64,000 bases of DNA. Source: Loxodes magnus. Its lineage: Eukaryota; Ciliophora; Karyorelictea; Loxodida; Loxodidae. The stretch spans positions 744,001 to 808,000 of the forward strand of contig CAMPDV010000014.1 in the NCBI GenBank assembly GCA_946699065.1, in the 5' to 3' direction. Position numbers and translations under genes: made by a program. Shown in pieces: positions 11,002 through 52,435 of the stretch (position 1 is the first letter of the stretch; each line of letters opens with the position of its first letter). Under the pieces are notes generated by a model. It worked only from the letters and a program-made list of their open reading frames with translations, had not been told where the DNA came from and searched no databases.

Positions 11002-12093
11002 ATGAAAATAGCTATCGAAAGCGATAGTTCAGAGCTTGATCACTGAGAGCTCGATAAAGAAGAGCTTTAGAATGAATGGACTCTTTCTAATTTTTGCAAT
11101 GAAGAAGTTCTTACAATCCTAATTGAAGAGGATAATTTCTTTGGTGATTGCTAACAAATTTATAAAATTAACTAGATCAAATTAGAAGAGCTGAATTATT
11201 AAAGCGAAGCATAATAAATTCAACTTGCTTTATTGTTCCAAAAATTACAAAATTTAGGCTTTAATTTTTCCCATTTTTAAATCTTTTATAAATTGTAGAA
11301 ACCTTGTTTTGTATTTTGTGGAGTCGCACCCAATTTTTAAAAAAGATATGTTTCTTTCATATCGTAAAATAAAGTTCACTTAAGAGTTCGATAGACTTTT
11401 TATTAATTACAATAAATTAGATAAGAAGAAAACTAAGATTAGGCCTGTCAAGGATAAATAGATGAAGCAGCTTTTGGGAGGAGAATATCTTGAGTTAAGA
11501 ATTTCTTGGAGCAAAGAGGTGTAAAGATGTTTTTAAGTAAAATTTCTAAGGGCTAAAAAAGATAATAAATAAATTCAGAGTAAGACAAATAAAGCCATGC
11601 AAAGAGAAAGAAGATTAAATCTTTGAAAACTGGATAACTAATTTTAATAGTTTCTTAATGAAATGAATTAAAAAATTCAAACTAAGATGAAGATTGTAAC
11701 TAGTTTCGTATGAGCAAGTACTTGTTATAAAAATTAGATTAAAAACTTATAAGTGCTGAAAAGTTTGGCTTTAACTTTATAAATCATGCTTAAGATAATA
11801 TTTCAGTTTTGAATAAGTATTGCAAAACGCATTTAAAAGCCTAAAAATTAAATAATTAGGATAAAAAGGACTTGAATTGGATAGAAAAGCTAACTCTACT
11901 TTCTGTGCGTTAGTGTAAAAATCGAAACTGTTGCTTACCAATTATTATTAAAAGCGAAGACTATCTTAACTAGTATATTTAATTTTTCATTAACAATTAT
12001 ATTAAATATAATCTTATTGGTATTATCTCCATCTTCTCTTTTATACTTATGAAGTTTATATTATTTTATTTGCAAGATCTAGAAATCTATTGA
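11002..12093 (+). CDS. FFGD-family protein, copy 1 (family not recognised)
   Basis: About 363 residues. The family is defined by comparison with the copy at 18423-19595. Shared blocks include EEDNFFGD (residues 42-49), LEELNY, a block with FVFCG followed by AP and RYVSF, FGR, GQL ahead of a hydrophobic stretch and a Trp, MSKYLL, GFNFINH with ISVLNKY, and near the end LSVRQC with CCLP (C310-P313). The Trp after the GQL block is TGA in both copies, which confirms the code. After CCLP comes a hydrophobic segment that could anchor the C-terminus in a membrane. The start is the first ATG in frame and TGA 12091 is the first plausible stop after the conserved part. Paired Cys residues hint at metal binding or disulfides. 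I know no family to name. Confidence 0.75.
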
Positions 12094-14307
12094 TGTTTTC
12101 TTTCGTAATCTTTTATACTAATAAGTTTTATAAGGAAATAATTAGCTTTAATATTTTAAGTCTAAATTTCTTTACGCGGTTTAAATTAAATTGAGAATAA
12201 TACACTAGAAGTAGAACTAATTGTATAAAGAGGTTTACTTCAAATCTATAAGCAAATTTAATTAATAGTCAAACTTAAATATATGCCCTTTAATTATTTT
12301 AAATTAGATTTGTTAAAACATTTAATACTAAGGAATCTATACCTCTTTAGATCTATTGATAGAAAATGCTTAATTATATAAATAATCTACCAATAAGTAA
12401 AAATTTAATAGCATTTTATATAAATTAATAAGCATTAATTTTCATCTTATTAAATCATTCTCAAGTTTATAAAAAAGATAATCTAAAATAAAGATAAATA
12501 GAATAATTGCTCCTTTAAATATATCCTTTGAATTAAAAAAAACTTAAAGTTTTATAATATATTTAATTTTAAGAATATAAATAAGTTAAAACTATGCTAA
12601 ATTAACTTTATAAGAGACTCTGGATTTAGCTATACTTCAATTTTAATTTTCATGTATTATTAATTTTATTTCAAAATCTCTAACTAATGCTTGAGTTAGA
12701 TTTGAATAAATTTTTATTTATAAATAATTAAAAACTTGCAATTATCCTGAATAAATTAAATTATTTTATTGCTAAATGAAATGATTAAGTTCCAAGCTAA
12801 TGACATTAAATTAAAACTTTCTCTATGTTTCAACACTTTATCAAATTAAAAATATATAAGTGTCTTAAACTTTAGTTGACATATTAAATTAAATCCAAAA
12901 TATCTAAATTTAAAAGCTTCAATTTATGCTTAAAATTTTAATTTAATATAAAATTCACATTCTTTTAAAGAGTTACTTGTGATCTTTAATTAGCAGTCTT
13001 TATTTTTAAAATAAAAATTCATTTAAAAACATTTTTGGAAATGGAAAAAAGAATGAAAAGCCATATACAAAAAATAAGGAATAGATAAGTTATTAGTGAT
13101 TTAAGAAACAAAATATAATTATCAATTTTAAATATAAGTAAATTAAGTTATATCCTCTTATATTGATAAAATTCCTAAATTTGTATATAAGATTTTATAA
13201 TGACTATATAGTAGCTTAGATAAATCATATACAAATATTTTAAAACCTTAATAAATGTCTTAAATTTAGATGGATTAATATATAATAGCTAGTCTCATTT
13301 AATTTTTATTATTTTTTTGTGTTACATGCTTTGACTTAATATAAATTATAAAAAGATGATAATTTAAAATATTTCATATAATTTATTCTAAAATAATATT
13401 TTATCTATATTTGATGCTAAAGTCTTTCTATTTAAAAAGAGAAGACAAAATATTACTAGATTCTAAGTTAAAATGCTTTAAATTTTTTAATTGTGTTTAG
13501 CTTAAAAAAACATCTTATATCATAAATTTAAAAAAAACTTCATTTTCTTTAAAAAATATTTTTATTAATTAAAAAAATAAAAGAAATACCCAAAATATTA
13601 ATTTTTAAATGATTTAGATTAAATTTAATAAATTAATTAAAAATAAAAGGAAAATAGTTTTTAATTTATATAAGAATAGTAATAGTTATTTAATTTTAAA
13701 TAATATAATAGTTTAAGTATAATTTCACTATTTTTTCTTATTTCTAGCTTTATTTTTCTTATTATAATTTAATAAATAAATTTAAATTATACCGAATCTT
13801 AATATTTTATAGTTGATAACTAAGAAAGAAAAAGTTATAAAATCTAAGTTTCTTTTATATAAATAGATATTATTTTTTGTACTAGTGAACGTAAAATTTA
13901 TTAATTAAAATAATTTAACTTTTTTCAGTAAAACCTGAAATAAGCTGACTAGATTAAGATATAAATAAAGATATCATATAAATAAATCTAAAATTTATTA
14001 AATTTAATAAAATAATTCAAAAAATGTTCAAATGTATATATTAAGTTTAAATTAAGTTCTAAAATAATAATTAAGTTAAATATGAAGCACTTCTTTATTT
14101 AATATTATAACATTTCTAATAAATGCTTTATACTCATTTATATTTAAATTAAAACTTTTTTAATTTATATATATTAAATTAAATAGTCAATTGCTTTTAA
14201 AATAATAAATATTCATTCAAGCATTTTATTATTTTAAAAACAAATTAAGAACTAATTTATTCTAGTAAATGTAGAAAATTATTTAAGAGAATCTTTACAA
14301 ATACTAA
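12094..14307. other. AT-rich interval, nothing recognised
   Basis: No motif or repeat stands out on either strand between the first FFGD gene and the weak coding island that follows. Confidence 0.35.
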
Positions 14308-14650
14308 ATGTTAGAAAACACTGTTGGAAATAAATGTATCTCTGATGATTATTCTATCTAAAATAAAACTGATTATGGACCATGAATAATCAAGAATATA
14401 CTATTTATTTTTAGTAAATTTGAAAATTGTTTGGAAAGAAAACTTTTTTCTTTAGTTCTCTTAAATCAATTAGTATTAGGAAATAATTCTCCATGCAATT
14501 TTGCTTAAAAATAGGGAAAAAGTTGTAGTTTTTGTCTAAAAATAGATAAGCTTGATAAATAACTAATATTTATTAAGCAAAGCAAAAAAGCGAGACGAAA
14601 AGGGTGGAGTTTGGAGATCCTTAAAGTTTAAACAAAAAATAAATTAATAG
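14308..14650 (+). pseudogene. Coding-like island, possible gene fragment
   Basis: From ATG 14308 the frame shows many codons beginning with G and a mixed amino-acid composition for about 110 residues, including two TGA codons as Trp. It then fades into A/T runs past about 14650. The local base composition rises, with GGTGGAGTTTGGAG near 14610. No start signal, splice sites or homologue support a complete gene, so a decayed gene or single exon is the best reading. Confidence 0.25.
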
Positions 14651-15403
14651 ATTTTTTTATCTATATAAGTGATTTAAAGGTAGAAATTAAAATCTTTAAT
14701 GATAATTTAAATATTATTTTTTATTTTTTTAATGTATAATTGAATATTCTTTAGTTATTGCTATAAGTTAAAAAACTTGGCTATTAATTGAATATTCTAA
14801 AAATAATTTAATTAAAATATAACTAAAAATAAATATCTCTTAATCAATAAAATTTTAAAGTTAATTTTTACTAAATACGTAGTTACAAATCTATCATCCT
14901 TTTGGCAAACATGTCTATATTTTTCATAAGTTATTTCCAGAAAATTTATCAGTAAGAATCTAACTTTATTCCTTTAAAGAAATATTTATATAAATTAATG
15001 AAATGCAAAATTATAGACACGAAAAATAAAAAAAAAACAAAGAGAAATGTTTTTATTCATAAAGACACCAAATTTAAAAAATTTTTCAATTTTACTTATT
15101 TTGATTTAAAAAAATGAATATAGCTTAACAAACACTTAATTTAATTTAATATACAATTGGAAGATTTTCATATTAATAAAGTAAATAAAATCTAAAATTT
15201 ATGAAATAAAATAATTAATAAATTCTAAAGCAAATAAGAATTTACTAAAAGTAGAAACGAAATAATTAGTAATTGTAAAGTTAATTAATTTAAATTAAAT
15301 ATCATTTCTTTTAATTTATTATATAAAAATTTTAATTAATTTTTCTATTTTACATTTTTCTTTTTTATCAATTTTTTTAAAAAGTAAGCGATATAATCAA
15401 AAT

Positions 15404-15720
15404 AATGTGTGAGCAATATTATGATTGTCTGATTATATCTCGAAAATAGAGATTTCTGGCTTTATCATCTAACATTAATACATCTGGATGATAATCAAGA
15501 TTTTATAAGGGCTTGAAGTTAATGATTATGTGTAATCTTTCATTACTAATGGCTGCTCAGTTTTTAGAAACAGATCGGCAGGTTATCCCAGTTATATCCT
15601 TTGAGAAATAAATAGAAAACAGTACGGAGAAAGAATAGATGCTCTCAAGCATTCAAATCCAATCTTTATTTTAAAATTATCTAAGCTAAAAACACGTTTT
15701 CTTGAGCAATTTATTCTATT
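15404..15720 (+). pseudogene. Coding-like island, possible gene fragment
   Basis: About 300 bases are clearly less AT-rich than both flanks. One plus frame reads NGCSVFRNRSAGYPSYIL followed by basic and hydrophobic residues; another frame beginning at ATG 15404 is also plausible, so the frame is not settled. Sequence quality as protein drops abruptly at both ends. A relic of an inserted or duplicated gene fits best. It is not obviously related to the FFGD genes on either side. Confidence 0.25.
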
Positions 15721-18422
15721 ATAAATTATTTAAATATTAATTTATTTTATTTATTTTAACTTTTCATCAAAATTAAAGAAATATTGCAATTAAATAACTA
15801 TTCGGGATATTAATTGAAATAATAAAATAAAATAAATTTATTTTATAATTAAGAAAAGGTTATATAATATGATTTTATACCAAAATACATTTGATATTAA
15901 ACTTTTGAAGCATCATAACTCATTCTAGTGGAGAAAATGTAATTAGGAATTTCAATAAGCATATAAGTTCCCTCTAAATAGTTTTATATAAGCTAGAAAA
16001 GTTCTTTTATAAATATTTTTCGCTTAAATCATTTAAAAGTATAGCTATCTATTTTTGATATAAATTTACTTTGTAATACAAAGATCATTTTAAAAAAATA
16101 AACACACTTGCTAAATTAAAAAAAAGGTATAATATAAATAGGTATTTTCATTAATTAATATTTAATTAAATTTTGACAATTATTCAAATTAAAAAATTAG
16201 TTAAATTTAATTTTACGCAATTATAGCTGAAATTGATATAATTTTATAACTTTTAAAACTTACATTTATATTTTTCAAAATTTATTTATTTAAAATAGAA
16301 TAGCAATAATTTTATAACTAAAATTAAAATTTCAATCATTTAAATAACTCTTCAAACTCTTAAATAATTTATATGGCTTTTAATTTCTTTAAAGTAAAAT
16401 TATTTTATATTTATTATGATATAGTTGACTCGTTTCGAAATACTCACATAAATAATAAATCTTAATCAAATTTTAGATTATCTTTAATTCAAAAAATCTT
16501 ATTATACAGATGAAAGATAAATTTAAATATTCTTAAATATACCTTATATAGACATCTTCATTTGAAAATGAATAATTCTAACTTATAAATATAATAAGTT
16601 TAAAATTTCTTCTCACTAAGATGTAGAATCCAACTAATTTTAGAGCTAAAATTTATCAATTAAGTAAAATAATAATTTTGATTATAAGGTTAAATCTTAT
16701 ATGAGACTTAATTTTCAATTTTTCTCTTTGCATTTAATTTATTTTGTGCTATAGCTTGATAATAGTTTTGATTTTTTAAATAGTTATGTTTATTTTTTCA
16801 ATTTTAATTAAGAATAGATTGAAATGAGTCGAAATTTTTTAATCTACTGTCAAATAAAAAAAGTTTATGAAATTGGTTATCTAAGCAAAAAAAAGTTATT
16901 TCTTTATATTATTTTGTTCTGCCCCATTAGGATGATTATATCTTTTTAACAATCCTAATTTATTTAAAGATAGCCTAAAGTAATTTTAATCTTAGATTGC
17001 TAAAATAATAAAAAATCTAATTTTCACAAAGCATTTATAATGAAAAAAAAATTTAAATATTTGAACATTGGAAGTAAGTCACACATAACTATCTAACTCT
17101 TAAACCAATCTACTTTCAGAAAAATAAATACAGTAATGATTTAATCAAAATACATTTTTCTAGTCATAATTTTATCTAAAATAAACAGCTATGTAAATTT
17201 AAAGCTATTTATAAAACGATATACTAAAACTTATTAAATGATTTTTTAATTTGATTAAAGAAATAAATTCCAAAGTTAAGTTATGCTATAAATATAACCT
17301 CAATTTGCTTTAAAAATATTTAGACATATAGAAGAATAAATAAATATCAACTTTAATTAAAGAGAATGATTGATATATACAATGAAACAATTACTAAATT
17401 TACCTTCTTAATTCTTTAGCTATTAATATTATATATTGTTAAGCTAAGCTTTCCCTTCAATAGAAGTGTAAATTTATTACATAAAGGGATTTGCTAGTAG
17501 ATATTCACGTTTTAAGTAATTAATTAATAATTTATTTTCTTATTAATAAATTATTTTATAAACTTAATGCAAAAATATTTGAAGAAATAATTATTTTTAT
17601 TATCAAATCAAATCAAATAAAATCTTTTAAATATGCTGAACAAATATATCATACCATGCAAAATAAATTTTATTTTTTTAATTTGACTTTTCACTTACGT
17701 TGTAAACATATTGGCAAAATTATTTTTATTCTTTTGCTTAAAATTTTTATTTTATAAGCGTCTGTATTTTATAATTATTTCCTATGAAAATTAGAGAGTT
17801 TTAGTTTAAAAATATCAAATTAAATACTTTAAATATTTCTAAGAAAACTAAAATAATCGTCTTAATTATATTTCCATTATTTATTTTAATTTATTGGTAA
17901 TACACAAGGTTATATAGTAAACATCAATACATTGCTTTTAGTAGAGATGTTTTAAGCGAAATTTTAGATAGTTAATATTTAACTAAAATTAAGAGTTTAA
18001 TATTTATTATTCTGTAAATTTTATAGTTTTCTTATATTTTTTTAAACTTCTAAATTAAATGTAAGCACTATTATAGTTTATAAAATAAATAAGTTTTTAA
18101 ACTATATCCTAGAATATATGTTTTAAAGTTTTTCTTTAATTTAATATATATACATACATAATTAAAATAAAACTTATCTACAAATTAATTTTCATATGAA
18201 TACTTGTATAAAGCGATTGAAAAGAATAAAAGAAGATAAAGTTAAAAATTTCAACCAAAAATGTAAAAAATAAAAGATATAAATTTTAAAATTTATATTG
18301 AAAAAAATAAAATTTAATAGAAGAAGATTAATTGTTAACTTCCATTCACAGTATTCGATTTCATTTTAATTATCTTTAATTTTTTATTATTTATACTTTA
18401 AAGCATTTTGCCATTATAAAAA
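15721..18422. other. AT-rich interval, nothing recognised
   Basis: No gene, RNA or repeat that I can support. A short stretch near 16921 (GCCCCATTAGGATG) is locally GC-richer but has no recognisable context. Confidence 0.35.
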
Positions 18423-19595
18423 ATGAAGAAAATTAAAAAAAATTCCATTTCCGAACCTAACCGATAAGATAATGAGGAGTTAGAACAATAGCTTGATTCT
18501 AGACCTACTAGTTAGGACATTCCAGAAATTCTTAAAGTCATTATTGAAGAGGAAAATTTTTTTGGCGACTAAAAATAAGTTTACAAAGTAAATTAGATAA
18601 CATTAGAAGAATTGAATTACGAAAAAGGAACATAACAAGTTTAACTTACGCTGCTATGCTAAAAATTACAGAGCTTAGGATTTGACATGGCCAATTATTA
18701 AGCATTTTATTAAATAAAGAAGTCTTATTTTGTTTTTTGTGGAATAGCTCCTTAGTTTTTAGAAAGATACGTTTCCTTCTGGAGAGAAAACGAAGTTTAT
18801 TTCAAAATTCGTTAGACATACCAGTAAATAAACAAAATTAAGCAATAATTGGCAGAAAATGAGGCTTATTAAGAATAGACTGATGAATTTACATTTGGGA
18901 GAAAAATTTCAAAAGTTAGAACAATACTTGAATAATAATTTTCCACTGGTTTAATGATTAAATCTGTAAGACGCAATTAAAAATCAGCAGATAGGCAAGA
19001 AAAAGAAAAGAATAAGATTGCGAAGAAAAATAAATTCAAAAAGATTAAAATTGGTCAGCTAATAATATTAATATCAAATTGAAAAAAATCCTAAAACCCA
19101 GAAGAGTTTAGCAACGAATTTGGAATGAGTAAATATTTGCTACAATAATGAGACCAAAAGCTTATGACTTCGGAAAAGCATGGATTTAATTTTATTAATC
19201 ATTCTTAGGAAAGTATCTCAGTTTTAAATAAATATTACAAGACTCATATGAAGGCTCAAAAATTATATTAGGAAAACAAAATAGATATTAAAATGCTTGA
19301 AAAGTTAGCTTTGCTCTCAGTTAGATAATGCAGAAAAGAAAATTGCTGCTTACCAGTTGATTCAAAAAAGTAAAAAATCAACAATAACTATTGTAATTAA
19401 ATTATTACTAATTATAATCTTAAAATATTCTTTTTATCATTAATATCTTTATCTTTCATATATATCATATATAAATCATATATCTAAATAAAAGCTTTTC
19501 CTAAAAAAATTAAAAATATCATAATGCTGCTTATTCATATTCTCATAAACTTAGTTTGCAAAAAATTTAGAAACTTAAAATAAAAATTTAAATGA
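18423..19595 (+). CDS. FFGD-family protein, copy 2 (family not recognised)
   Basis: About 390 residues, colinear with the copy at 11002-12093. Conserved blocks are EEENFFGD, LEELNY, FVFCGIAP with RYVSF, FGRKIS, a basic Lys-rich middle, GQL with a following SNW (Trp = TGA, as in copy 1), GMSKYLLQ, HGFNFINH and LSVRQC with CCLP. The C-terminus carries one and perhaps two hydrophobic segments before TGA 19593. The two copies diverge most in the N-terminal 35 residues, in the basic middle and after CCLP, while the listed blocks stay nearly unchanged. That pattern implies selection on protein sequence and therefore function. Membrane tethering through the tail is an inference. No known domain is recognised. 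Confidence 0.75.
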
Positions 19596-22500
19596 ATCAA
19601 TGTTAATTATTTTAAAGAAATAAAAATGAAAAATTTATTATTTAAGATTTAATAAAATTGTTAAAGATGCTTTTGTTTAAAAATATTAAATTAAACTTTT
19701 TATTTTTTTATTAATTTACTATTTAAATAATTCTTAAAAAATATCAAATTTTAAATTTTATTTGGTTTAAATAATAGATAGATATTTAAAACTTGTTCGC
19801 AGAATTTATAAAAATACCTTTAATTTTCAAAAGGGATTTAATTAGAACTATTTATATAATTTAGATCGATATATTTTTACATAAACATAATATAATTAAA
19901 AAATGATATAGTTGTATTTTAAATGATTTCTAATTTAATTATTTAATACATCAATTTTTTTAAATCTTTTAGTTAATTTAACTTTTTATAAAAATGAATT
20001 AGATAAATTTTAGGGGAAATTATATTTAATTTATATAAATAAATAGTTAAAATTAAAATTAAGATTAAAGAAAATATTTATCAATCTTTCCAAATATTAA
20101 AAATTATTTATAAAATTAAGCAAAGCTCGTTTTCTTTAATAAATAATTCTAAACAATTTTAAGATATTAATAAATTGTTCATTATTATTATTGATATTTT
20201 TAAGAAGTATTAATTTAGATATAATGCATCATACCTGATTATTTTTATTTTTCGGTGTTGATAAAATTTTCCAAAATATTTAATAAATTTTCTTATTTTA
20301 TTAAATGAAAAGGTAAATTAATTTTTAGCATTACTATGATTAAGGCATTTTTAATTTTATAGAAACTTCAAGTAGAGATTAAAAAGTAGCTATATGGGTT
20401 ATAAATGCAAATTTAATAAATTTTGTTAAAATTTTTATGATGTATCTTGCTTATAATTAATTCTACTAAAAGCTAGGAATATCTATTTTTTAATATTTTT
20501 GGAAACCTACACTCCTTGATTGGAATTCTCAAATGAAAAGATTTGTCTTTTTTTAATAATTGAGATTTTATCTCATTTTAATTACATTTTTTTTTCTTGA
20601 ATTTGAAATATTTTGCATTGACTTAATAATTTACATTTAACATTTGCAGAAGCAGGACTAATTATTAATTTTACCTCTTACAAGCTACTATTTTTTTCTT
20701 ACATTTAAAATTTTATGAAGAATTTCTTAGAACATATCTTGATTTATCAACATAATAATGCTATTTAAGCATTTCTTCTTATTTCAAAATTTTTTTAATT
20801 TAAACTTTTGAAAAAATATTTTTAGCTAGCTAGCTTATCAATTTAGATTTGTTTGAGATTTTTCCCATAATTCTTTTCTTGAAATAAGAATTTTCAAACT
20901 TAATATTACTTAAAAATTGATAATTTCGTCAGATTATAAAAAAAACTTTAGCCATCTGTTTCAATTTCCTTTTCTTATTATTTTGTTTTGTAATGTTGAG
21001 CAAATAGTGCTTTAAAATTTTTTCTTCTTGATAAATCGAATTATTACCATATTTTTTAATTACCTAATCCAATGTAAAAATTATAACCTCTTGAATATAA
21101 TTTAAATTATTATGAACTTGCAAAATACTTTTCAATTAAATTGAAGCTAAAGCTTTTATTTTATAATTCTTAAATCATTTATCATTTATCATTTTCTATT
21201 TTTTTATGGAATGAAACATCATAATACTCTTTTACATACTCTTTTTATTTAGCTATAAAACATTATATGCTTTAGTTTAATTGTTATTTATCAAAAACGA
21301 AATATCTTCTGAAAATAATTAAAATAATTAAAATATTTACAATCAAGTTTTCTCAGAACTTAAAATTATGCTTATCTTTCTTCGTATGCTTTTATAAATT
21401 TTTTAATTTAATTTTTATTCAGTAAGAGTATTGAAAATAATATCTAAACTTTAATTAAAATTCTCTTTTATAAATTTTAAAACAAAAGGATGTTATTATA
21501 GTTAAATAAAAATTATTTAAATTCAGAATTCTACTAATTTAAGCAGCTTCTTAATTTAATCTTCTACTAGCTTTTATATAAAATTCTTTAGAAGCTTTAT
21601 TTTATAAGAATAAAGCGAAAAAATTAATTTTGATGAACTAAGATTATCTTCGCAATTTTTATTTTAATAGAATGATTTATTCCAATGTATCAATTTTATT
21701 CTTTAAAGAAATAATAGAATTATCAAGTTAGCATTCATTTGCGATATTCTAAATTTTATAATAATGCTTTAATAACAAAGAGTATATATAAGTTCAGTTA
21801 ATTTTAGATTTATATTTAAATTATTATATGATTTTCATTCATTTTATTTATTACATTTAGTAATAATTTATTTTTAACTCGTTCAAAGTAAAGGGGATTA
21901 TAATTTGAAATAAAGTGATAATAATTATAAATAAAATAAGAGGCTAAATGATTTAAGATATAATTATTAGTCATAATTTAGTAGATTAATTGTAAGTAAA
22001 AAATAATTTTAATACATATTCTTCAGAATTTTTACTCTCATCAGCTAGTCAATAATTTTTCCTAAATTTTCTTTTAATTATCAAGGATTTAAGTTTTAAA
22101 CTATAAAGATAAAATAAAATTTAATAAATCTTATAAAGTTTTTATTTAAGATTTGATTTTTTTATTTTTTAGTATGTTTTTATCATACTATAAGTATTAA
22201 TATTATAAAATGTCTTAAGTTTATTATTCTACTTTAAATAAAGTTATGATTGTCTTTTTAATATCTTAGCTCTATAACTTATCAACTTTATCTGACTATA
22301 TTAAATTTTTTTAAAAGAATGAAACCTTTAGTAAATATTAATTAGATTAAGTAATTCATTGAATTATCTAAGCAAGTTCCAACAATAAAAGCAATAACTA
22401 AGCTTAGCAAATAAATTTAAATATATGAATGCTTTAATACAACTAAATTTACAAAATAACAATAAAATGCATCAAACTTAATATAAGGCTATTAAAACAT

Positions 22501-24239
22501 ATTCATATCTAATAAATAGCTGATCATAACTTTTTGCCAATAATTTTGATCCTTGTCAAATTAAATATATGATATAACTTAAAGATATTATTAATTTTTT
22601 TTAAATCAGATAGAAGAACTGAAAAGCTAGATTTTAAAATATATGATTGCAATAAAAAAGTTTTTAAATCTTTATTACAGTTTATTCTATTTATTTTATA
22701 AAGGTTGATTTTCTTAAATTAATTTTTATTAAATTTCTAAATCTTAAAAAACTAAATTGAGGTAAATAATTGCTAAAAGATTTCTAAATAAATAAGTTAT
22801 AAACTTAGTAAATTAAATTACTAGTTATATTTTATTTTATTATTTATCTTTTATCTAATATTCGATCAAATATTTAAGTTTAGAAATTTTAAAACACTAA
22901 AAATTCCCATATAATTTATGTTAGAATCTTGCTAGAGCTTACGATGAAAAATTCTTAGACTTAAACATTTTATGTTTTTATCTTTATATTAATTTATAGT
23001 TGCTTCTACAATTCTCAACTTAATCAAAAAGTAAGCAAAAAGGGATTTAATTTAAGATATTTAGATTCTCTTTTTACCTTATTGATTTAATGAGATTATT
23101 AATTAAAATTTGAAGATAATTATTTTTAAATATTTTATAGATGCTAATTTCTCTATTAATTATATAATTCCATTTCATTCTAATTTTTCTTTTTTAGAAA
23201 GACTAAATTTCTAATATATTTACTATAATTCTTTAAGACTAATTTTAAATTAATTTTTTCAATTTACAATTAGATGTTTATCTAATTTAAGAACTTTAAT
23301 CACTTTACAACTAAAAGTTATTTTAATTTTATTTATCTGAAAATGAGATATAATAAAATAGTAAGTGCTATTTGTCTTATATTTAAATTAAAATAAGCCT
23401 ATCATTATCTTAAAGGTAACTAGCACCAATCTTTGTTAATTTATTTATAGAATTTAGAAGCTAGCTGGCTTAAGATTTTATATTTTAGATAATTTGAGCT
23501 GCATTTACTTTTCTAATCGTATGATGATGTTTGTTATGATAAAATATAAAAAAATTTTCTCTTTTTTAGAATAAATTACTATTTTTTGAATAATTTTGCT
23601 TTTACTTTTAAATTAATTCTAAGTTGCTCGTGATTTTCCTAAAATTTTAAAGCATTTCATCTTAATAAAGTTTCTGCTTTATTATTAAATAAATTTAATT
23701 AAGTAATTCTTCTTAAATTTTAAAGCTTAATTTAAAAATTCCTATCTCAATCTATACCTAATTTCTTATAAATTATCCTTCCTTTTATCTAGACTAATTA
23801 CAACTTGTATTAAATGGTTTGAATCTGAATATTTTATTAAATTATTTATCTGAAACATTAATTAAAATTGAATGCTTTGAATTCACTTTTTATTAAAGTA
23901 GAAAAGTTAAATATTTTGGCTAGTAAAAAGAATTGAAATTAGTGTAAATATATTTAAATTTTTCTATTTATTTAGATTTATTAATATTTGCCTTCTCTTC
24001 TATAAAGGAGAGTTTTTATTCTATTTATAAATAATTGTTTGGTTCTATTTTCAAGAGCTTGATTTATAATTTCTTGCAATTTCTTACAATTTATCTAAGC
24101 TTTACGAAGTTACTCTATGAAAATTATAATACTTGCAGTTTAAAACAAATTCAAAGTTTAAGGAGTTTTATTTTCTAATGAAGCCATATTTGTTTTGTTT
24201 ATAAGCAATCTTTGCAAATTTCATTATAAAAATAAAGAG
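19596..24239. other. AT-rich interval, nothing recognised
   Basis: About 4.6 kb without a motif or repeat that I can defend. Some frames read as plausible hydrophobic or Asn/Lys/Gln-rich protein, but this is expected of AT-rich sequence under an all-sense code. Confidence 0.3.
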
Positions 24240-24284
24240 GGAGGAAGAGATATTGACTTTGGGAGAAAAATAGAAGGAAATCGC

Positions 24285-24306
24285 TCTAAATGAATATTCA
24301 TTTAGA
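24285..24306. repeat. 22-bp perfect palindrome
   Basis: The sequence around CTAAATGAATATTCATTTAG is a perfect self-complementary palindrome of 22 bp. It lies inside the decayed FFGD copy between the FGRKI-like and ENFFGD fragments, close to where the block order is changed. Confidence 0.6.
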
Positions 24307-24641
24307 TATTCATAAGAGCAGCAATGATAAATACATTCAATATCATTGTTGAAGATGAAAATTTCTTTGGTGATATTGAATTATTTATCTGGTAAGTGTT
24401 GCTAAGCTAGCATGATATCATTAGAAATCTTAATAAGTTCAACTGTTTAAGATTGAAAATTGGAAAGAAGTGACTCTTCCAATTTTAAATATTTTATAAA
24501 GTAAAGAAATCTTACTTTATAAGCACACCGAAGAGCTTTTTTAGAGAGGTAAGTATTTATCTTAATCTTTGAAAAATTTTATATTTTCTTAGCTTTATTA
24601 TGTAAGAAAATATAGGAAAACATTAGTTTTCCGAACTTATA

Positions 24642-24666
24642 AGATTGGTATATATAATACCAATCT
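24642..24666. repeat. Inverted repeat, 10-bp arms
   Basis: AGATTGGTAT and ATACCAATCT flank a 5-base loop. This second palindrome also lies inside the decayed FFGD copy. Confidence 0.55.
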
Positions 24667-25000
24667 CGTTAAAATTCAGTATGGAGCAAACCAATAAGAA
24701 ATCCAATAGTAATTATTTAATTTATTTTAGGATTTAGTTTGGTCAGCTCTAACTTTAAAAAAGCATTTTTTCAAAATTAAAAAGTTAGATTAATAATAAA
24801 GGCGTGGAAATTACTAGCTTAGCAATTTTTAAAAAAGTTCATCCTGCTTAAAATATGGTATTTAAGTACTAAATCAGGTTTTGAATTTATTCAAATCCAA
24901 TTTGTGAATGCGGAGTTATTTAGAACGATAATAAAATTATTGGTTGTACAAATTTTGCTAATATAGTGTAAATATAAGAGTTGAGTTCCTTATTATTAAA

Positions 25001-28000
25001 AGTGAAAAAATGCATATTTTAATTATTTTTTTCCAATTTCATTTTCCTTTTTCAACGAATTATAAATCTTTTAATGCTTATAATTCTTGCTGTTTTGTAG
25101 CAAGAAAGATAATTAGCATTTTTCTAAATTAAATAGCTATAATAGACTCTCTTTATCTTAAATCCTAAAATAAATAAAGGTATTTCGTATTCTGATTCTA
25201 CTTATTAAATTTGATAGTTGAATTCAATAGAAATGTAAATGTAAATGTAAGTCTATTGTAAATAAATTAGAAGCTAATTTAAAAGCAGAAAGATCACTTA
25301 AATAGCTAGATTTACAATATTAAAATAGCTTTCGTTGTTTCAAATAAATATATCTACTCTCTATTTTATATCTATCTCTTTCTATGAATATCTAAGTATA
25401 TAAGAATTAAACAATTTCCAATAAAACTTTAGACACAATACCCTTAATTTACTAAGCAGCACAAAGACAGAATAATAATGAGATTCTTTAATCAACTTGT
25501 TGCTATCAAATAAATAAATAAAATTTTATTGATGATTGACAATAATTTACTTGATTATCTTTAAGTTTGATATTTCAATTAAATTTTTAGTTTAAAATCT
25601 ATTTATTAACTTTTGTTTATAAAATATGATGTTTATGCATACCAAATATGAAGCATTTCATTTTTTTTGCTTCTAAGAAAATTTTTAAATTAAAAAATGA
25701 CTAAAAAATAAATAAAATAAAGTATTTCAGCATCAATATTCAAGTTTTCATCTATCTTGAGTTTTCTCCTGTTTCATCTTCTAGTTTATCTGATAGTTTT
25801 TTCTTTTAGATAGTAAAAATTTTATAATTATCAATTAATCTAAATAGAATTTAAGTATTTCTATACATCATACGCAGATAATTTTCTACATCTAACACAA
25901 AATAATTGGAATAAATTATAAATAATTGATAAAATAGAGATTTACCTAACATTTAATAATATATAAATAAATAAATTTTAAAAGAGATAAACTAAAATAT
26001 TTATTCTAAATCCATATTAAGAGGTTATTGCAAATATAAAAGTATTAATTCAGATTGATAAAATAATTACAATTATATTTTAAATTTTAAATTGCTGCAT
26101 TTATTTAAGAAGATATTTGAATGTATACAATTTAAACTTTACCAATATTCTTCTTTCTTTGTTTATTTATTAGAGTAATCTCGTAATTTATAAGCAAGAA
26201 ACCATAAAATTATTATGAATGAAAGATGATTAAAAGTTTGAATTTTAGCTCTTACAATTCTAATAAAGCAAAAAGTTAAAAGAAGATATTGAAATTATAT
26301 AGCTTTATTATTATTATTAAATAGACTTAGCTATCATCTTGCTCATAAAGGAAATAACTTAAATACCAATTTTAAAAATTCTTATTTTATTAAAGTTGAT
26401 TGTATAGTCAAATCTATTTCAAATAAATTAAAAATAATAGTAGTTTAGTAGAAAGTAGCTAAGAGTATTTGGAAATTAATTAAATTTTAGCCAGCTAATT
26501 TAATTAAAAGAGTCTCCAAATCTTTTATGATAGCATTACTTAATTTAATTTTATATATTTTATAAATAAGAGTATTGCAGGATTAAATTTTAACTTAACT
26601 AAAAAATACCAATCTGAAGATTTAATAGCAATGCTATCATCATAATTTTATATTCTATTTTATATAAAAGCAATCCCTTTAGTTAAATGCTAAACTAAAT
26701 TCCTATGCAAATTATATGAATTAAGTTATAACTCTTTAATTTATTTAGGTAAGAGCATATTGAAAATAAATTAGATAAATCAGACAATAAATTATAAATA
26801 TAAAGCTATTAGTAGCATTTTGGAAGTTTAGAATCAACAATAATTATTTCATTTTTTAATTTTATATTATTAAGTCAAATCTTCATTGTAAATTTAGCAT
26901 TAAATTTACTATTTACTTAAATTAAAAAATATCATAGATAAAAATCTAAAACTAATTATAAATTTAAAAAAGTTATTTAAAAAGATTATTTAAAAGAGAT
27001 AAACATACAAAGTGAAATTATTTCTATGAATTATTTAAAATTAATTACAGTAAGCTTTCTATGAACTAGAATAAACTAGCATCTTAATAGGGTTTCATAT
27101 CTTTAAGAGTTTCTGGGAGAGATGTTTATCTTTTAATAAAGATTAATTAAAAATAAGCATTCTTTATTTTTAAATGTAATATCTTTATTGTCATGTATAA
27201 AATATTAATTCCTTTAGCTTCATATAAATAAAACAATTATAATATAAAATATAAAATTTAGCTATAAGATCACAAAGCGATTATCAATAATTCAATTTAA
27301 TGATAAAATTAGCTATATGGAAAAGTTTTTATTCATTAGTTTAAGAAATAAAATTTAAATTAAGCTTTATAATTAAGTCTTTAATCTCTTTTAATTTTCT
27401 TTAAATTAAATAGCTCAAAAATTTGATTTAGAGAATTTAAGATTATTTTTTTAATTTTTTATAATTCAATGTGGCTAAGATTCTAAACAGCTTTTTCATT
27501 TTAAGTTAGCTATTCGTTAAGAATTATTTTACAATTTTAAGCATCTCTTTCATAAATTATTAAGTAATTTCAAATTAATAGATCAGATAATAGCTTCTTA
27601 TTGCATTTTTGGCCCTTCATATTAACTTTTCTTTTAGAAGTCTAGTAAGTTTAAAATGGGTTAGGTAATTCACACTGATATAATTAAAATAATAGGGAAT
27701 TATTTATTTTAGATTTAATATATTTATAAGAATAAAATTAAAAAATAATTATTTAAGCAAGTATTTTCAATTAATTGGTTTTAACATCTATTTGTTAATA
27801 ACTTTTAAATAAATTAAATTAAAAACATTTAGAAATCTAATATTATTTAGTTAAAATTATTTTAGCAAAAGTGAAGAATCTATTTTTTAGAGAATATACA
27901 TTTCTTTTATTCTAAATATGATACTTGTATCTTTGCTAAATAAAAATATTTTTATTTTATTTTTGTAATCATACTAAAAATTTTAACTTAGAAAAGATAT

Positions 28001-30123: not shown

Positions 30124-33100
30124 ATGATGCTATATCATTTACTTTTTCTTCTTATTTTTATTTCTTGTAAGGCACTTTAAGTAAACCCGAATTTCTTGAG
30201 AGAATAATCTTTTAATGAGTCTTAGTTTAGGTATTTAAGTGATTATTAACTTGAGGGGATATCTAAAACTTGTACAACTTTTGACACAAGAAAATTTCCT
30301 TTTCCTTATAAAGGCTACAGTGCAACCATAGAACGCGATCCAAATAACCAAGATATTAGCAAATATCAACCATTCGGACTCTCTTGCTTATTAGGTAGCT
30401 TAGGATAATGCAAATATTGGATGTTGAATAATGGGATTTGTAATTTCGAATGTCAAGTGTCTGAGTGTGGATGAGACTGAGATGACTGTAAAGAATGGTG
30501 TGATAGCGTTTATTGCAATTACAATATGTTCTGAAAGTAATAAATACAAAATTGCTTAGACTAAAGCTGTATAAATCCATGTAACTAAATAGTAAGTTTC
30601 TATTCAGAATAGTGAGGCCTGTATTAAGAGTTTAGAAGGTGATGGGGTTTGCTAGTTTTAATGCTTTAAATATTAAAACAAATTTGATCACTCAGATTGT
30701 TGCTTCACCCTTACAAATTGCAAATAAGATATGATTAGCAATTAAAAATGTGACAAAGAGTGTTTAAATCCAATGTGTATTTCTTTTGAAAAATCAGATT
30801 GTCAAAATGATTGCTTAGAAGCTTCAAATGGAAAATGCTTAATAGATAAAATAGATGACAAAAAATGTAATCAAGAATGTTTATTTCATTAATGCGGCTG
30901 AGATGCCATGGATTGTCTTGAAAACAATAAGAATAATTTAGCTTATAATTCAAAACAAAATTTATCAAAATCTCCTTTCTGTTCCCCCGGATGCCTTATT
31001 AGAGATTATGAAGATAGCATTAAACATGTAGGAGATAATAAATGCAATCTTGCTTGCATGACAGAAAGTTGCCAATGAGATAAAGCAGATTGTTGTGGTA
31101 GTGAAGTTTAAATTATAATAAACAGCAAAGTAAATTCTTAAAGATGATAAATTTTTTAGATTCCTGTTACAACTTGCTTTGCAACATTTGACCAAAAAAA
31201 TAAATTTCATGATCTAATTTTTGATCCTTAATGTTTTATTCCTATGTGTGCAGAAGATCATACTTCAATATAAGCTTGATTTGATTATTTAGATTTATAA
31301 TCTCTCATCTTAGATAATAAAGAGGCAGTTCAAGTTTTAAATTAGTATTGCAATAAAGATTATTTACATGATTGAAATGACTGCTTAAATAGCGATCAAA
31401 AAAATTTGACTTAGTGCAACTCTTAAATTGAAAAGCATAATTGTAACTGAAATATGATAGGTAATAATGTGTGCGAAATTATTTGCTTTGAAAATAAAGA
31501 GTAAAGCTGCAAAAATGATGGGAATGACTGCATTAAATGCTTATTAATAGATGAAAAATGCCTCGATAAATAAGGGGATGGTTTTTGTGATTTAAAATGC
31601 TACAATTAAGCATGTAATTGGGATGGAGGAGATTGCCTCAAGTGCATATAGCATGGATGCATGATATAGTAAATAGGAGATGGAGTTTTATAAGAAAAAT
31701 GTTTTTATTAAGAATGCTTTAATGACAGTGTATTAAGTATGGGTATTTAAGATTCATTACTATGTTTTTAAATTGGATGTTCTATAGAGATGCTAAGAAA
31801 TTAATAATATGACGCAGTGTGCGATGTTTAATAATGTGATTATGATTCAATTGGGTATTAATGCAAAGAAGTACTAAATTTGCACAAACTTTATGATTTG
31901 TGCGTAATTAAAAATCAGAAATGTAGCATATTCCAATGCTAAGAATTTCACGAATGTGACTTTTAGTGTTAATAATTATGCTTAGGAGTAGATCTTCATT
32001 TTTATGATAAGAAGCTAATTGGTAATGGAATTTGTGACCTAAATTTATTAAACTATGAATGCTAATATGATAATTTCGATTGCTGTTCAAGAGAAAGAGT
32101 ACCTACATGTGAGAATTTGAATTTAGCTTTTGATAATTACTGCAATGATGGAGTTATGAGTGATTACGATTGTAATGTTGCTTAATGCAGCTATGATAGT
32201 GCTTAATGCTGCTATTGAAAATCTATTAACTCAGGAATTTTTTAAAATTTTCCTTGTTATCCAGAGTTGATAAATAATGGACATTGTGATCCTCAATGTT
32301 GAATAAACGAATGCTGGTATGATGGATAAGATTGCTAGAATTGTGCCTCTACACTTTGTTAGGATGTTCTTTAAATAGGAGATTATGCTTATTAAAATGT
32401 ATGCTTTAAATCTATTTGCAATTACGACACAAATCCAAAAATTATAGAAATATTGGATCACAATGCAACTTAATACATATACTTCAGTGATTTATGTTTA
32501 AATAAATATAAAGGATAGATTTAATGAGATGCTGTGAAGCATATGATGGATAAATATTATTGCGAGGACTGATGTAACGTAGTAGAATGTAACTACTGTA
32601 ATAAACATTGCAAATGTACAACTCCTTTAGAAATAGATATTTAGAGCTTGCAAAACTTATTTACTGAGAGTGAATTATGAATTCTAGATGATTTATTGAA
32701 AACTTAAATATGTTAGAAACATTTACTAGGAAATAATGAATGTGATGAAGAATGCTATTCTAAGGATTGTTAATGAGATTAGCTAGATTGTGTATGCCAC
32801 TATGAAAATGAAAATTATTGTGTTAACTTCATGTTATCAAATATGATTTGCGATTAAGTATGTAATAATCAAAACTGTAATTTTGATGATTATGACTGCT
32901 GTAATATAGGTTACTAAAACAATTCCCAGCAAAGCTAAAAGGTTGAGCTAGGAGATGGTATTTGTTAACCAAGCTGTATTTTCTATAATTGAGATAGCTA
33001 AGTAAATGCATAATTAAATACTCTACCAGAAAGAAAACCTGATTGCATGCTTTACATTCGACTTCCTCATTTTCCTTTAATCGAGTTTAAACTTACTTTT

Positions 33101-36100
33101 GCAGAGGCTTTTTAAAGAATTTCCAATAACGAGAAAGCTGGATATTATTAGCTATGTCCAGAAGAGTGTTAGTAGAAAACTTTATAGGAAAGTAAAACTA
33201 GAAGATTCTGAAGAACTATAGGAACTTAATATAACTTCAACTAAACTTTATAGCATCTTTAGAACTATCCAGAGTAATTCTCATGCTTTTAATGAGATAT
33301 AAACTATGAAAAGTGTATGAAGAAGGAATGCTTATATGATGGAGCTGACTGTTCTTATTTTGTTAACAAAGGATAATAAGATTAGCTAAGCTTAGTTTTT
33401 GATAATTTTGGAAAGCCTGTTTTACAATGTCATCCTTTCTGTTCTGCCTGCTACTAGACTACAACAGTTTAGGATAACTACCCTAAATATTGAAACTGTT
33501 GGTTTTGTAATGAAAGATTTTATAGAATAAACTCTTTTTGTATAGATTCTTGTCCAGCTGGATTCAAGGAAAATACAGAAAATCAATATGACCCTTAGTG
33601 TAAGAAAGAAGTAGATTTAACAACTCAAGATAATCCTTAATTAATTTATGTTACAAATTAAAATAATCCACTTCCATAATTCACAAAAGCAGGGGAATAT
33701 TACTCTTTTTGCAAGGAAGGAGAATAACCTAATAGTATTAATGATTTCGCGAATGAGAATAATATGGGATGTATAGTTTATAAAGGCCTAGGAACCTTCG
33801 AACGACCTTATTTAACACTCGCAGAAGCTTTAACGGAAGGAATTTAGCAGTAACATGTGAAGATTTTACTATCAAAAGGATCTCATAATTTAGAAGAACT
33901 TAAAGAAGGAGTTAGCACTATAGAACCTGAAGATCCGTTTAATTTTTTTCTACTTCACAAGAAACTAAATGATGTTAAAAGTGAGTATAAACAGTTTAAG
34001 GAAGTATCAATCTAAACTTTATATTGCTAAAATATTGACTTTAAATTACAAAATTCAGCACTAGTAAAATGCGAATAAAATAAAAGTGAAAGAGCAACTA
34101 TATCTATAAAAAAGGTATAACTTCAGATTGTTGTACTTAAAGGACATTTGAAGTTCGAAAACGTCATTTTAGAAATGAGCAAAGCTTTTTATAACAATAG
34201 TGATTCAACGGAAATAAAGTGTTATAAAGAATGAACTTGAGGATGCTCATTTTGTACTTTCGGGTTTTATTTTAAAGAAAATCCATACTTATTGCAAGAT
34301 GAATTTGGATTCTAATGAAATTTCAAATAGGGCATGCTTGCATATCCTTTCGGTAGCTCTTTTAACTGTTAAAGAAATAATTATTCATTCTTTAAAATTA
34401 TTAAAGGAAAACTAAGTCTTAGCAATGTCTGATTTTATAAATTCACTAAAAGGCATTAAAGTTATATCGAATGTTAATCCTGTGATTTAGAATTCAATAA
34501 CACAGATTTTTAATTTCTCGACTCTGCTAATTATGTAATAAACATGCATTGCGATACTGAGCATAACTTATCTGACTGCGGAACTCTAAAGTATAATGGA
34601 GGTACAGTTAGTGAAATAAATAATTTTCATTACTTAATCTTAGAAAATTATGAGCATTAATTCTTATAATTCTCATTTCCTGGCTTTTTAAATGCAAATT
34701 AGGCAAAGCTTATTGAAATCAATGGAGTCAAATTCTATAAAAATTATATTTGATCAAATATAAAAAAACATGAACTCAGTGAGAAGCACTCATTGCTTCA
34801 GCTGCAAAATTGTAAAGAAATTAAATTTCTAAATTTGCTATTTTACAGAAACATAGTTTTTAAATCTAATATGATAAGGTTTACTTATTCCAAAAAGTTT
34901 TAAGCAGAGTATCACTAACTGTAAAATATTATAGTGGATAATTGCACGTTCTAAGAAAATTTTGCAAGTGTAAACGGAAGTGTAGCATTCTAATTACTTT
35001 TTACATACGATATTCCAAATGTTCTAATAAATAACTCAGTCTTCTAATTTAATACTGGAGATTTTTACGATAAGTACGATTATATAAGTAATTAAAATTC
35101 TTGATTTTTATTTACTACACCTGGAGTTATAATAATGTCTTATGAGGATCTTTAATATTACAGTAAAATAACAGAAGAGTAGGCCTAACTTGATAGATTG
35201 AAGTTTTTAAACATATCAAATTGTATATTTAAAAGTAACTTTTTACCTATCATTGTTTGAGTAGTAAAATACAGGAACGTTTACTTTACTAACTGCTCTT
35301 TCGAATAAAATTAAAAATTTTCAGAGGAAAATTTTTTTAAATACTCACCTATTTCAAAAGTAATCATGAATTTTACAGAGCTCTACTAAGTGTTTGACAG
35401 TCTTAATAAATCCTCTACTTTAAATATATCTCCAAAGTCATTTGATTAATAAATCATTGATAAGTAAAAAGGCAAAGAAGGAAACTTTTTCGGAAATATC
35501 GTTTTTGCGGAAATAAAGACTGATTTTATTTCCGTTGATTTTTTTGAAATATAAACAGTTTTTGAGAATGTAGTCATTTAAGACTGTAAATTCCTATTCA
35601 ACTTAATTCAAATCAACAATTGGTTTTTTTATTAGTCAGTGCTTTAGAAATTTTAGTTTAATTATGGAGAAATTTTAATACTCTCAGCTTATAACGTGGA
35701 AATCAAAAATAGCTTGATTTAAGGAAATTTAAATGAAAGAGGAGGTGGAATTATTATTAACTGAGCTAAATAAGTGACTTTTGATGGAATTCATGCGCGA
35801 GAAAATTAATCTCTACTACCCTTAATATGGGTGTAGTTCTGGTATTAGGCTTCAATTAAGAATTCGTTTTTTTACAAAACAACGAATATAAAGAAAGACT
35901 AACTAGTAAGTTCTAGTAATGTTCTATTTGTTTTAAGAACTACATGAGTACAAAATTTTGATACTAACTAGTACCCTACATTGATAATAGAAAATTCCAT
36001 TTTCTCCAATAACTAGGCTAATTTTATGCCAGCTGATTTTACAATCACGAATGAAGACTCAAGTTTATAATAGGAAATAATTTTAATTATCTAAAACACC

Positions 36101-39100
36101 AATTTTCTTAAAAGCAAAGGAAACTCAATATCTTCCTTTTGAATCCAAGATTCAATATAACTTAATGTCTGAAGCATCATTAAAAATGCAGTTTTTGCTG
36201 ACTAAATCTCTCAGTTATATTTTATTGAGCTAGACAGTTGACTTTAACTGAAATTTGAAAACGTTCTATTTTACAACAATATGCTAAATAATACAGACTC
36301 TCCCGTTTCATTAATTTTAGGAAGTAACAATCTAGATTAAAAATCATATCTCTACTTCAAAAATTGCACCTTTAGCTATAACAACTAGATAAATTAAAAT
36401 TTAAACCATCTCTCAAACCTAATAAAAATAATTTCCACTGAAAGCCATTAGGAGATCGTAATAACCACTTAAGACTGTTCTTTTTTTTAAAATTAAGTAT
36501 AAATATTTTACCTCCAATAAGCTATTTGGCAAGATACAAACTCAACTTTTATCTAAAATAGTTATAACTGAGCTGCTTTACTTTATTTTATTGGAAGCGG
36601 TCTAGAAGTGAATGAATATTAAATTATTTTGCGAGAGACAAAGATAGTAGAAAATTATTCTAAGGAAATCCTATTTAAGATTATATAAACTTAAATATTT
36701 TTTGACAGAATTCAGATGAAAAGTAATTTAGTTAGTAAAAAAGGAACGATCGAGCTGAATGATGTCAACATAACCCTATAATAGTGCATATTTGATTCTA
36801 ACTAAGTCGTAGAATATGGAGCTATCTTTGAAATTCTTTCAAGTGTTTACTTAAGTGACAAATAATCTTTGTTTTAGCATAACAAAGCGGAATTACATGC
36901 TGGTGTTATTTTATTAAGTGGGTAGGGGACTAAAGCATTTTTTAATGCAAGTGCTTTTATTGGAAACAGTGCCGGAATAGGAGGAGCTGTTTATTTAACT
37001 CAGAGTTCTTAAGCGTTTTTTAACGAATGTTTAGTTACATAAAATAGAGCGAAAGAGTTTGGAGGATTTGTTTATGTTGAATCAAATTCGTAGATATAGA
37101 TTAATAATTCCATATTGACATAAAACAAATGTAATTACAAAGGCTCTGTTGCTTTTCTGCTTACTTCTAAGAAAAATAATATTATTTCAAACTGTGATGT
37201 AAAGCAAAATGAAGCATAAATCGCTACATTATATTTAATGTTCTCATAAATCAGTCTAAGTAACGTTTTTTTATCAGAAAACAAAGCCTAAATATCTTCT
37301 AGTGGGATAGTTGGAATCCTATCAGTTATATAGATAAATAGTTCAATATTCTAAAAACAAGAGGCGATGTCTGGAGGATTTATAAACATAATGACTGAAA
37401 GTTTCTTAACTATTTATAATTCTACTTTTATAAAAGGATCAGCATTAGATGGAGGAGCAATCAATTCATATCTTAGTGAAATTAAAATCTTCAATAGCTA
37501 TTTTGCAACAAATGCTAAAATTGGTGGAGTCATATACGCTAGCAAAACTATTATAGCTTCAAAAAACTGTTTATTTGAAAGTGAAGATACAAAGAGTTCA
37601 ATTTTCTGCCTTACTTGTAATATTTCCTCTATTTCTGATGTTTTTTAAGCTTTCTATCCTAGAGCCTTTTATATTTCTAATTCATTTTTCTTAGAAATTA
37701 GGAATTCGATATTTTAATATGGAAAACGTAAAACAGAAGATATATAAGGAGGAGCTTTATATTTAGAGGAAATTCAAACAATCCAAATAGCTAACTCTTA
37801 TTTCTATAATATTACAGCTACCCAAGGTGGATGTATATATGTAACGAATTAAGATGCTAGTACTAATACTTAACTACTACATATAATAAACTCTACTTTT
37901 CATAAATGCTAAGCAAAAGCTGAAGGAGGGGCTATATATGCCCTTCGATAAAATTTTGTCTTTTAAAATAATACTTTTATCTAAAATAGAGCTCTAGGTT
38001 CCATTTAATAACTTGCAAAAGGAGGTGCTATTAGAACCATATGCTAGTAGAATCAATGCACTTTTAATTTTACTTACAATATATTTGAAAGTAATATCGC
38101 GGAGGATGGTGAAGGAGGAGCTATTAGTTGGAAGAATAAAATTCCAAGTTTAATACCAAATTTTACAGATTAAGAGCATTTCTGTAGATATTTTTAAAAC
38201 AATCAAGCAAAATATGGCAATGAGATATCATCATAAATCACTTTTATAGCTTATTTATAAGATAATATATCAAATCCCTATAATATGGTTCCTTCTTGCT
38301 AGGCAGAAAATCAGAGAAAATCAGTTGAGAATGATCAATAACGAAAAGTCTAATAATAGGGCGCAATAGAATTTGTATCTGGATAAGTAATAAAGAAAGT
38401 TGAGCACTTCATTTTTATAGATTCATTTGGTTAAACAATTAAAACATCTAATGGCGATGAAATAACTTTCCAAATTGCTGAATAATACTAAAAAACTACT
38501 TTTATTTCCGGTATTACTTAATTCAAATCAGGAGCAGGCTTATTTAATATAACTAATTTTATTATAACAGGAATACCTGGTAGCATCTTCTAGTTAAATC
38601 TTTAAGCAAACGTTCTTGATCAGAATCAGATTTATACAAATGATTTGTATAACTTAAGTTAAAAAACCTCAAGAAATTTTAGCATCTTTCTTAGATATTG
38701 CAAAATAGGAGAAATTTAACTTATATCAGGAGCTTGCTTTAAATGCGATTAAGGAACATATTCAATAGAAATTAATGCAACTGATTGCAAAAAATGTCCT
38801 GATGGAGCAGAATGCCCGGGAGGATCTTTAATTTTTCCAAAGGAAGGATACTGAAGAACAGGAAATGACTCAGATGAAATTCTAAATTGCCCCAGGAAAT
38901 TTAGCTGCTTAGGTATTGAAGTTCCAAAATAAGAACGTTTAGAAGATGAAGAATACTTACAACAAATAAATTGAAAAGGAGAATGTGCATCTGGATATTG
39001 AGGAAATTTATGTAATTCCTGCTAATGAAATTATGAAAAAATTAGTGAACATAAATGTGCTCCTTGTCCAGAAAAAGGAACAAATATTTTCACTATCTTC

Positions 39101-46277: not shown

Positions 46278-46402
46278 TTGTAATGTAATAAAGAAATGAT
46301 TGACTTTAGTTTAAAAATGAGAAGCCTGAATTTATAATATTAGTTATAGTTATATAGAACTGGAAATTTATCATTTTATGTAAAATATCTTAAAAATATA
46401 AA

Positions 46403-47632: not shown

Positions 47633-47642
47633 CTTCTGATTT

Positions 47643-52366: not shown

Positions 52367-52435
52367 TAGAAACTTGCAATTATCTTGCTTTTCTTGACTT
52401 TTATAGCTATTGTTCAATCCAAGACTTTCAGTGCT

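Follow-up and report, generated by a model that had tools for sequence, protein, structure and literature searches.

An uncatalogued pair of duplicated genes under purifying selection, with a collinear relic, in Loxodes magnus

A 64,000-nucleotide stretch of the Loxodes magnus genome (contig CAMPDV010000014.1 of assembly GCA_946699065.1, positions 744,001 to 808,000 of the forward strand; here called the window, with coordinates counted from its first letter) carries a real, conserved and uncatalogued gene pair, the FFGD genes, together with a collinear relic of a third copy. These belong to a lineage-restricted, duplicated family. We establish the homology of the two genes, purifying selection on both, the use of TGA as a tryptophan codon, the collinearity of the relic and the absence of the family from the libraries that we searched. 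The function of the protein is treated more cautiously, and we discuss a possible link to beta-grasp scaffolds that is drawn from structural models.

Two old paralogues kept by purifying selection

Copy 1 (11002 to 12093, forward strand) spans 363 codons from an ATG to a TGA at 12091, and copy 2 (18423 to 19595, forward strand) spans 390 codons from an ATG to a TGA at 19593. An earlier, sequence-only reading of the window had described two genes 6.3 kb apart with several blocks in common (DNFFGD/ENFFGD, FVFCG, RYVSF, GFNFINH and CCLP), and our comparison confirmed this layout. The two copies could be aligned over 311 codons in a single frame throughout, with 153 identical amino acids and 73 identical codons, so that 80 of the 153 identical residues are written with different codons. 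Differences between the copies were distributed 119/78/151 over the first, second and third codon positions.

Selection was estimated with a 64-codon maximum-likelihood model. For copies 1 and 2, we obtained an omega (dN/dS) of 0.059 at t 5.3, and omega = 1 was rejected with a doubled log-likelihood difference (2dlnL) of 112; the distance between the copies is saturated, which makes the omega value rough, while the rejection of neutrality stands. No constraint was detected in the first 35 codons (omega 0.68, 2dlnL 0.27). In three later blocks omega = 1 was rejected (2dlnL 44, 37 and 49), the middle one showing a runaway distance at which its omega is not usable. When the window was compared in 1-kb tiles, the tiles of the two copies scored 338 and 271, and the best other tile pair reached 76. 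The flanks, taken as 1.5 kb upstream and downstream, showed similarity above controls in none of six comparisons, and the start context common to the copies, CATTATAAAAAAT, gave no signal (7 matches versus 5.3 expected). The selection that had been suspected from near-identical blocks between diverged linkers is thus borne out by an omega of about 0.06 next to flanks that lack similarity: both copies are old, arose by duplication and are kept by purifying selection.

The family is also unrecognised, as had been proposed, within the libraries searched. Pfam, NCBIfam, PHROGs, PADLOC, PDB sequences and scans of IMG/VR and GTDB contigs yielded no convincing match to either copy; Pfam returned no family for the full-length proteins and none at E values up to 10 for the N-terminal domain pieces of both. 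Several low-scoring candidates were set aside, namely phrog_5797 (E 0.0033, residues 7 to 35 of copy 1, confined to the variable N terminus of one copy), TIGR00044 (E 0.0026, copy 2 only, 17.4 bits versus a cut-off of 106), RhoGEF (E 0.028, C-terminal domain of copy 1 only, 15 bits versus a cut-off of 27.6) and the weak matches AAC_6p_Im (E 0.18, copy 2 only), an aminoglycoside acetyltransferase chain (E 0.22, two-copy profile) and phrog_23405 (E 0.032, reading of the relic). A literature search for "ENFFGD" found no paper.

Genetic code of the window

The window is AT-rich, with a GC content of 0.135 to 0.295 in 2-kb steps, and contains no open frame of 150 amino acids under translation table 11. 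Across all 64 kb, ARAGORN found no tRNA, and Rfam gave no family at the gathering threshold. The FFGD loci can be read with TAA and TAG as glutamine, save for in-frame TGA codons at 11044, 11491 and 11659 in copy 1 and at 19080 and 19149 in copy 2 (all on the forward strand). Because all three stop codons may be sense codons here, open frames prove nothing, and homology has to decide.

For TGA, this homology came from an LNR gene at approximately 30.3 to 41.8 kb, in which Pfam PF00066 was matched in eight stretches (E 7.5e-15, with TGA read as tryptophan). One position of the LNR motif (the ? in C-x-?-D-x-x-D-C) is aromatic, consistent with the remaining motif rows, and in 10 motifs it was occupied by TGA four times, by TGG tryptophan once, by tyrosine three times and by phenylalanine and asparagine once each. 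The presence of TGA at an aromatic position in 4 of 10 motifs indicates that TGA encodes tryptophan in the window, and the in-frame TGAs of both FFGD copies are therefore tryptophan codons, not nonsense codons. One pair among the five FFGD TGAs is aligned (11659 in copy 1 and 19080 in copy 2). Weighing on the other side, tryptophan is poorly conserved, with only one of the seven columns that have it in either copy having it in both.

Glutamine reassignment is supported within the conserved alignment itself, where TAA and TAG make up 24 and 8 of the 39 glutamine codons in the core of copy 1 and 17 and 8 of the 35 in the core of copy 2. A Condylostoma-like code (code 28) is a possible alternative for this DNA. 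The window shows what the karyorelict code (NCBI table 27) prescribes, with TAA and TAG as glutamine and TGA as tryptophan inside genes. Code 27 has been described for Loxodes, and in karyorelicts TGA is both tryptophan and the only stop, according to the portions of PMC11441545 consulted; going by the code and that paper, a genome of karyorelict type is supported. Under code 27 translation ends at TGA alone, and TGA and TAA are expected to be depleted shortly before a stop. The TGA at 12091 is thus probably the true stop of copy 1, and the 36 codons preceding it contain no TAA, TAG or TGA. The stop of copy 2 is uncertain, because a TAA lies 4 codons upstream of the TGA at 19593. GC content is 27% in the cores of the copies and 15 to 19% in their tails; the same portions of PMC11441545 give 33.5% for L. 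magnus coding sequence and 18.6% for its 3' untranslated regions.

The LNR gene occupies 30331 to 41812 on the forward strand. A single frame of about 3,670 codons runs from 30812 to 41809, and one LNR motif lies upstream in a different frame. Behind the LNR repeats, inspection by eye shows a middle part full of repeats, then a segment rich in Cys, hydrophobic stretches and a C terminus of Gln and acidic residues. The frame of the gene holds 41 TGA and 12 TGG codons, a ratio that does not by itself count as evidence for TGA as tryptophan, since the next frame gave 44:13.

A collinear relic of the third copy

The sequence-only reading had presented the third copy as a scrambled relic that keeps the same blocks in permuted order. 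We found instead a real relic, collinear with the intact copies and carrying deletions. Its core lies at 24321 to 24564 on the forward strand and runs in the same order as copies 1 and 2. In chained, composition-aware alignments it scored 98.1 with copy 1 (24321 to 24564; best control, 57) and 104.6 with copy 2 (24343 to 24562; best control, 56), and neither score was reached by any of the 268 window segments that served as controls for each copy. In a separate test, the core score was reached by 0 of 1,200 controls. A profile hidden Markov model built from the two copies and run in six frames gave the relic 11.3 bits, the best of 10 Markov controls reaching 4.7, and found no convincing further copy in the window (next place, 39329 to 39487, with 6.1 bits).

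In all, 18 block tests were made on the third copy. Taken singly, the FFGD block (24342 to 24374) and the FQIFYK block (24479 to 24521), both on the forward strand, outscored every one of the 268 controls, whether compared with copy 1 or with copy 2. The RYVSF stretch, which extends to approximately 24562, gains support within the chained alignment only; as a block of its own it was not significant, and an FCG-RYVSF query matched the FQIFYK part instead. The LEELNY, MSKY-GFNFINH, VLNKY and CCLP blocks remained at chance level when tested singly. Possible further collinear remnants at 24739 to 25006 (forward strand) are borderline: a GQLI remnant at 24739 to 24748 was reached by 2 of 268 controls with copy 2, whereas with copy 1 the block matched elsewhere (127 of 268), and a CCLP end at 24964 to 25006, seen with copy 1 only, was reached by 4 of 298 controls in one test and by 50 of 268 in another. 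The existence of a degraded third copy is confirmed.

The permuted order was rejected. Both individually significant blocks occur in normal order, and the chain continues in order to the RYVSF stretch. The sole out-of-order candidate, at 24258 to 24271 (forward strand), consists of 14 nucleotides that match FGRKI in copy 2 and is probably due to chance: it was reached by 1 of 268 controls and by 33 of 1,204 in another test, and with copy 1 the block matched elsewhere (24239 to 24259; 12 of 268 controls). Scrambled loci of Loxodes are cited in the sections of PMC10810533 that we used, and PMC11441545 reports, in the portions consulted, no canonical excised or germline-limited segments in L. magnus. 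The relic lends no support to scrambling.

Two other comparisons failed to raise the relic over background. Plain blastn hits to the third copy reached 39.1 to 41.2 bits, within the range of top scores from 20 Markov controls (34.7 to 44.3), and its 1-kb tile pairs scored 72.6 and 66.2, with two unrelated pairs higher (76.5 and 73.0). An initial DNA alignment that penalised gaps lightly gave the relic 685 and 756 against controls of up to 725 and 771; this scoring regime was judged wrong and replaced by the composition-aware one, and it is the chained, composition-aware scores that carry the argument for a relic.

Domain architecture and possible function

Both intact proteins can be divided into the same parts, all encoded on the forward strand. 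Behind a short variable N terminus lies a putative ubiquitin-like (beta-grasp) domain, at 11104 to 11436 in copy 1, where it contains the FFGD, LEELNY, FVFCG and RYVSF blocks, and at 18525 to 18857 in copy 2. A basic, less conserved linker follows (11437 to 11709 in copy 1, with a KRKKIK cluster and the blocks FGRRIS and GQLI..W). The conserved C-terminal domain (11710 to 11940 in copy 1; 19125 to 19355 in copy 2) runs from MSKYLL through GFNFINH to LSVRQC-x4-CCLP and is 68% identical between the copies. An internal GFNF repeat between the two domains was unsupported (nine columns, E 0.06).

The assignment of the N-terminal domain to the beta-grasp fold is tentative and comes from low-confidence AlphaFold models. 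A domain model led by copy 2 and a full-length model led by copy 1, both built from the same two sequences, showed a similar order of strands and helix, with a beta-beta-alpha-beta-beta-beta topology visible in each, and the hydrophobic pattern of the domain agrees between the copies. With Foldseek, both models matched SOSEKI, the DIX domain of Dishevelled and other beta-grasp domains in the PDB, SOSEKI 6rsn being the best PDB match for one model and ranking fourth for the other. Several points weigh against this fold. The models have poor pLDDT values (38.8 for the full-length model and 57.3), all Foldseek matches lie above E 0.001, and VIA Z scores do not exceed 6.7, a range for which the tool cautions that a match may reflect no more than a common arrangement. 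Staphylococcal superantigen-like proteins, themselves carriers of a beta-grasp domain, matched one model about as well as DIX (ranks 1 to 3). Moreover, Pfam detected no DIX, SOK, PB1, RA or ubiquitin family in either copy, and the IMG/VR and GTDB contig scans yielded no convincing homologue from outside the window.

The modelled domain resembles that of DIX proteins (Dishevelled, Axin, SOSEKI and the SAR "Musketeer" proteins such as ATHOS) in its strand and helix order and its position near the N terminus, but the copies lack a match to DIX or SOK profiles. It likewise shares its topology, in the low-confidence models, with ubiquitin-like domains (UBL, UBX, PB1, FERM and kindlin F0), from which it differs in giving no sequence match and low Z scores. 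To our knowledge, no ubiquitin-like protein combines such a domain with the FFGD C-terminal domain. Among SAR organisms, DIX-like proteins have been reported in Paramecium, Tetrahymena and others (PMC7042713, PMC12077222); in the parts of these papers that we drew on, SAR DIX domains, among them that of Paramecium, polymerise in vitro (PMC7042713), and a role in polarity and motility is proposed (PMC12077222).

We tentatively propose, at somewhat less than even chances, a karyorelict-type gene that was anciently duplicated, with two copies constrained and a third decayed, and whose product is a beta-grasp adaptor or scaffold, possibly membrane tethered. Ancient duplication of a gene with TAA and TAG as glutamine and TGA as tryptophan or stop would have produced an array of copies in head-to-tail orientation. 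Purifying selection then preserved two of them, and the third degenerated where it lay, with no rearrangement that we could detect. A beta-grasp domain beside a second conserved domain suggests an adaptor: the former, from FFGD to RYVSF, may bind some partner or self-associate, by analogy with DIX and PB1 domains, and the basic linker and C-terminal domain (GFNFINH to CCLP) may bind a second partner. If the domain were of the DIX kind, it could assemble head to tail, and the hydrophobic tail, if translated, could tether the protein to a membrane; self-assembly and tethering are guesses from fold and composition.

The hydrophobic tail, at 11941 to 12090 in copy 1, where LIGIISIFSFILMKFILFY is the putative tail anchor, and putatively at 19356 to 19592 in copy 2, is weakly supported in both copies. 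It diverges between them, and its Kyte-Doolittle peaks (2.33 and 1.77) rise little above noncoding background, which counts against a membrane role: among 9,108 noncoding translations, 2.7% reached 2.25 and 1.3% reached 2.5, the values bracketing copy 1, and 13.8% reached 1.75 and 7.1% reached 2.0, those bracketing copy 2. Of the membrane tether that the sequence-only reading had suggested, a faint indication is left.

Alternatively, the N-terminal domain may have a different fold, one that an alignment of two sequences is too shallow to resolve, and the protein may act in the nucleus or in association with nucleic acids, its basic linker serving as nuclear signal; this is a serious possibility that falls short of likely. 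The low model confidence and the basicity of the linker (pI 9.6 in copy 1 and 9.9 in copy 2) favour this explanation, while the agreement of strand and helix order between the models, the shared hydrophobic pattern and the absence of any nucleic-acid family in Pfam speak against it.

We consider it unlikely that a mobile or viral element gave rise to the three copies by insertion, with the low omega reflecting selection within the element and not host function. The number of copies, the decay of one, the confinement of similarity to coding sequence and the many retroelements of Loxodes (PMC11441545, in the portions consulted) would fit such an origin. However, the copies share no flanks, although noncoding similarity would be saturated at such a distance, and all three lie on the same strand, which fits tandem duplication. 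Neither Pfam nor PHROGs gave a transposase, reverse transcriptase or viral match beyond the one PHROG of unknown function at the N terminus of copy 1; a relative in IMG/VR was not confirmed, and none of the 365 matches in a viral fold library fell below E 0.001.

A metal- or nucleic-acid-binding membrane protein, as first proposed, is improbable. The conserved cysteines (C106 and C305-x4-C310-C311 only) and histidines (H262 and H277), the basic segment and the hydrophobic tail could point that way, but no CxxC, CxxH or other zinc-finger spacing is conserved between the copies, Pfam gave no zinc finger for either, and the tail is weakly supported. Metal binding and nucleic-acid binding have little in their favour, the basic segment being compatible with nucleic-acid binding or with nuclear import and proving neither. 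That both copies are pseudogenes broken by TGAs under a Tetrahymena-like code is extremely improbable: three and two TGAs do precede the presumed ends and the unaligned ones face other residues than tryptophan, but the LNR motifs, the aligned TGA pair, the single frame over 311 codons and the omega of 0.059 contradict it.

Among the other features of the window is a region at 2490 to 2918 in which the GC content of a 250-bp tile rises to 42% in surroundings of about 20%. Two imperfect direct repeats of about 60 nucleotides (2533 to 2592 and 2669 to 2727) are visible there by eye, a 19-nucleotide tandem array follows them, and Rfam gave no match. On the reverse strand lie a TPR protein gene (48838 to 50079; TPR_19, E 2.1e-09), whose two halves are separated by a single in-frame TGA, and a possible ubiquitin-ligase-like gene (46200 to 47704; UBR-box, E 0.00046, and RING, E 0.009, both under Pfam cut-offs). 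The forward strand encodes a strongly acidic Asp/Glu repeat protein in tandem 33-nucleotide units (52412 to 53010).

The FFGD genes resemble the ciliate lineage-specific families of PMC10810533 in being small, duplicated, conserved and unnamed in a karyorelict-type genome; the passages covered do not name the family, and no match was made to the clusters of that study. Where no codon is reserved for termination, standard tools overlook genes, and the FFGD family illustrates a gene that can be proven by selection between paralogues rather than by open reading frames, with a relic that was first read as scrambled and proves collinear. If the N-terminal domain is DIX-like, the DIX family, which has been connected with cell polarity, would gain a protist architecture. 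In the boldest version, which we regard as a long shot, a karyorelict-specific, self-assembling and membrane-tethered family would join a diverged DIX-like domain to an otherwise unfamiliar conserved C-terminal domain in a tandem array that expands and decays, and would give the polarity-type DIX proteins of protists a new architecture.

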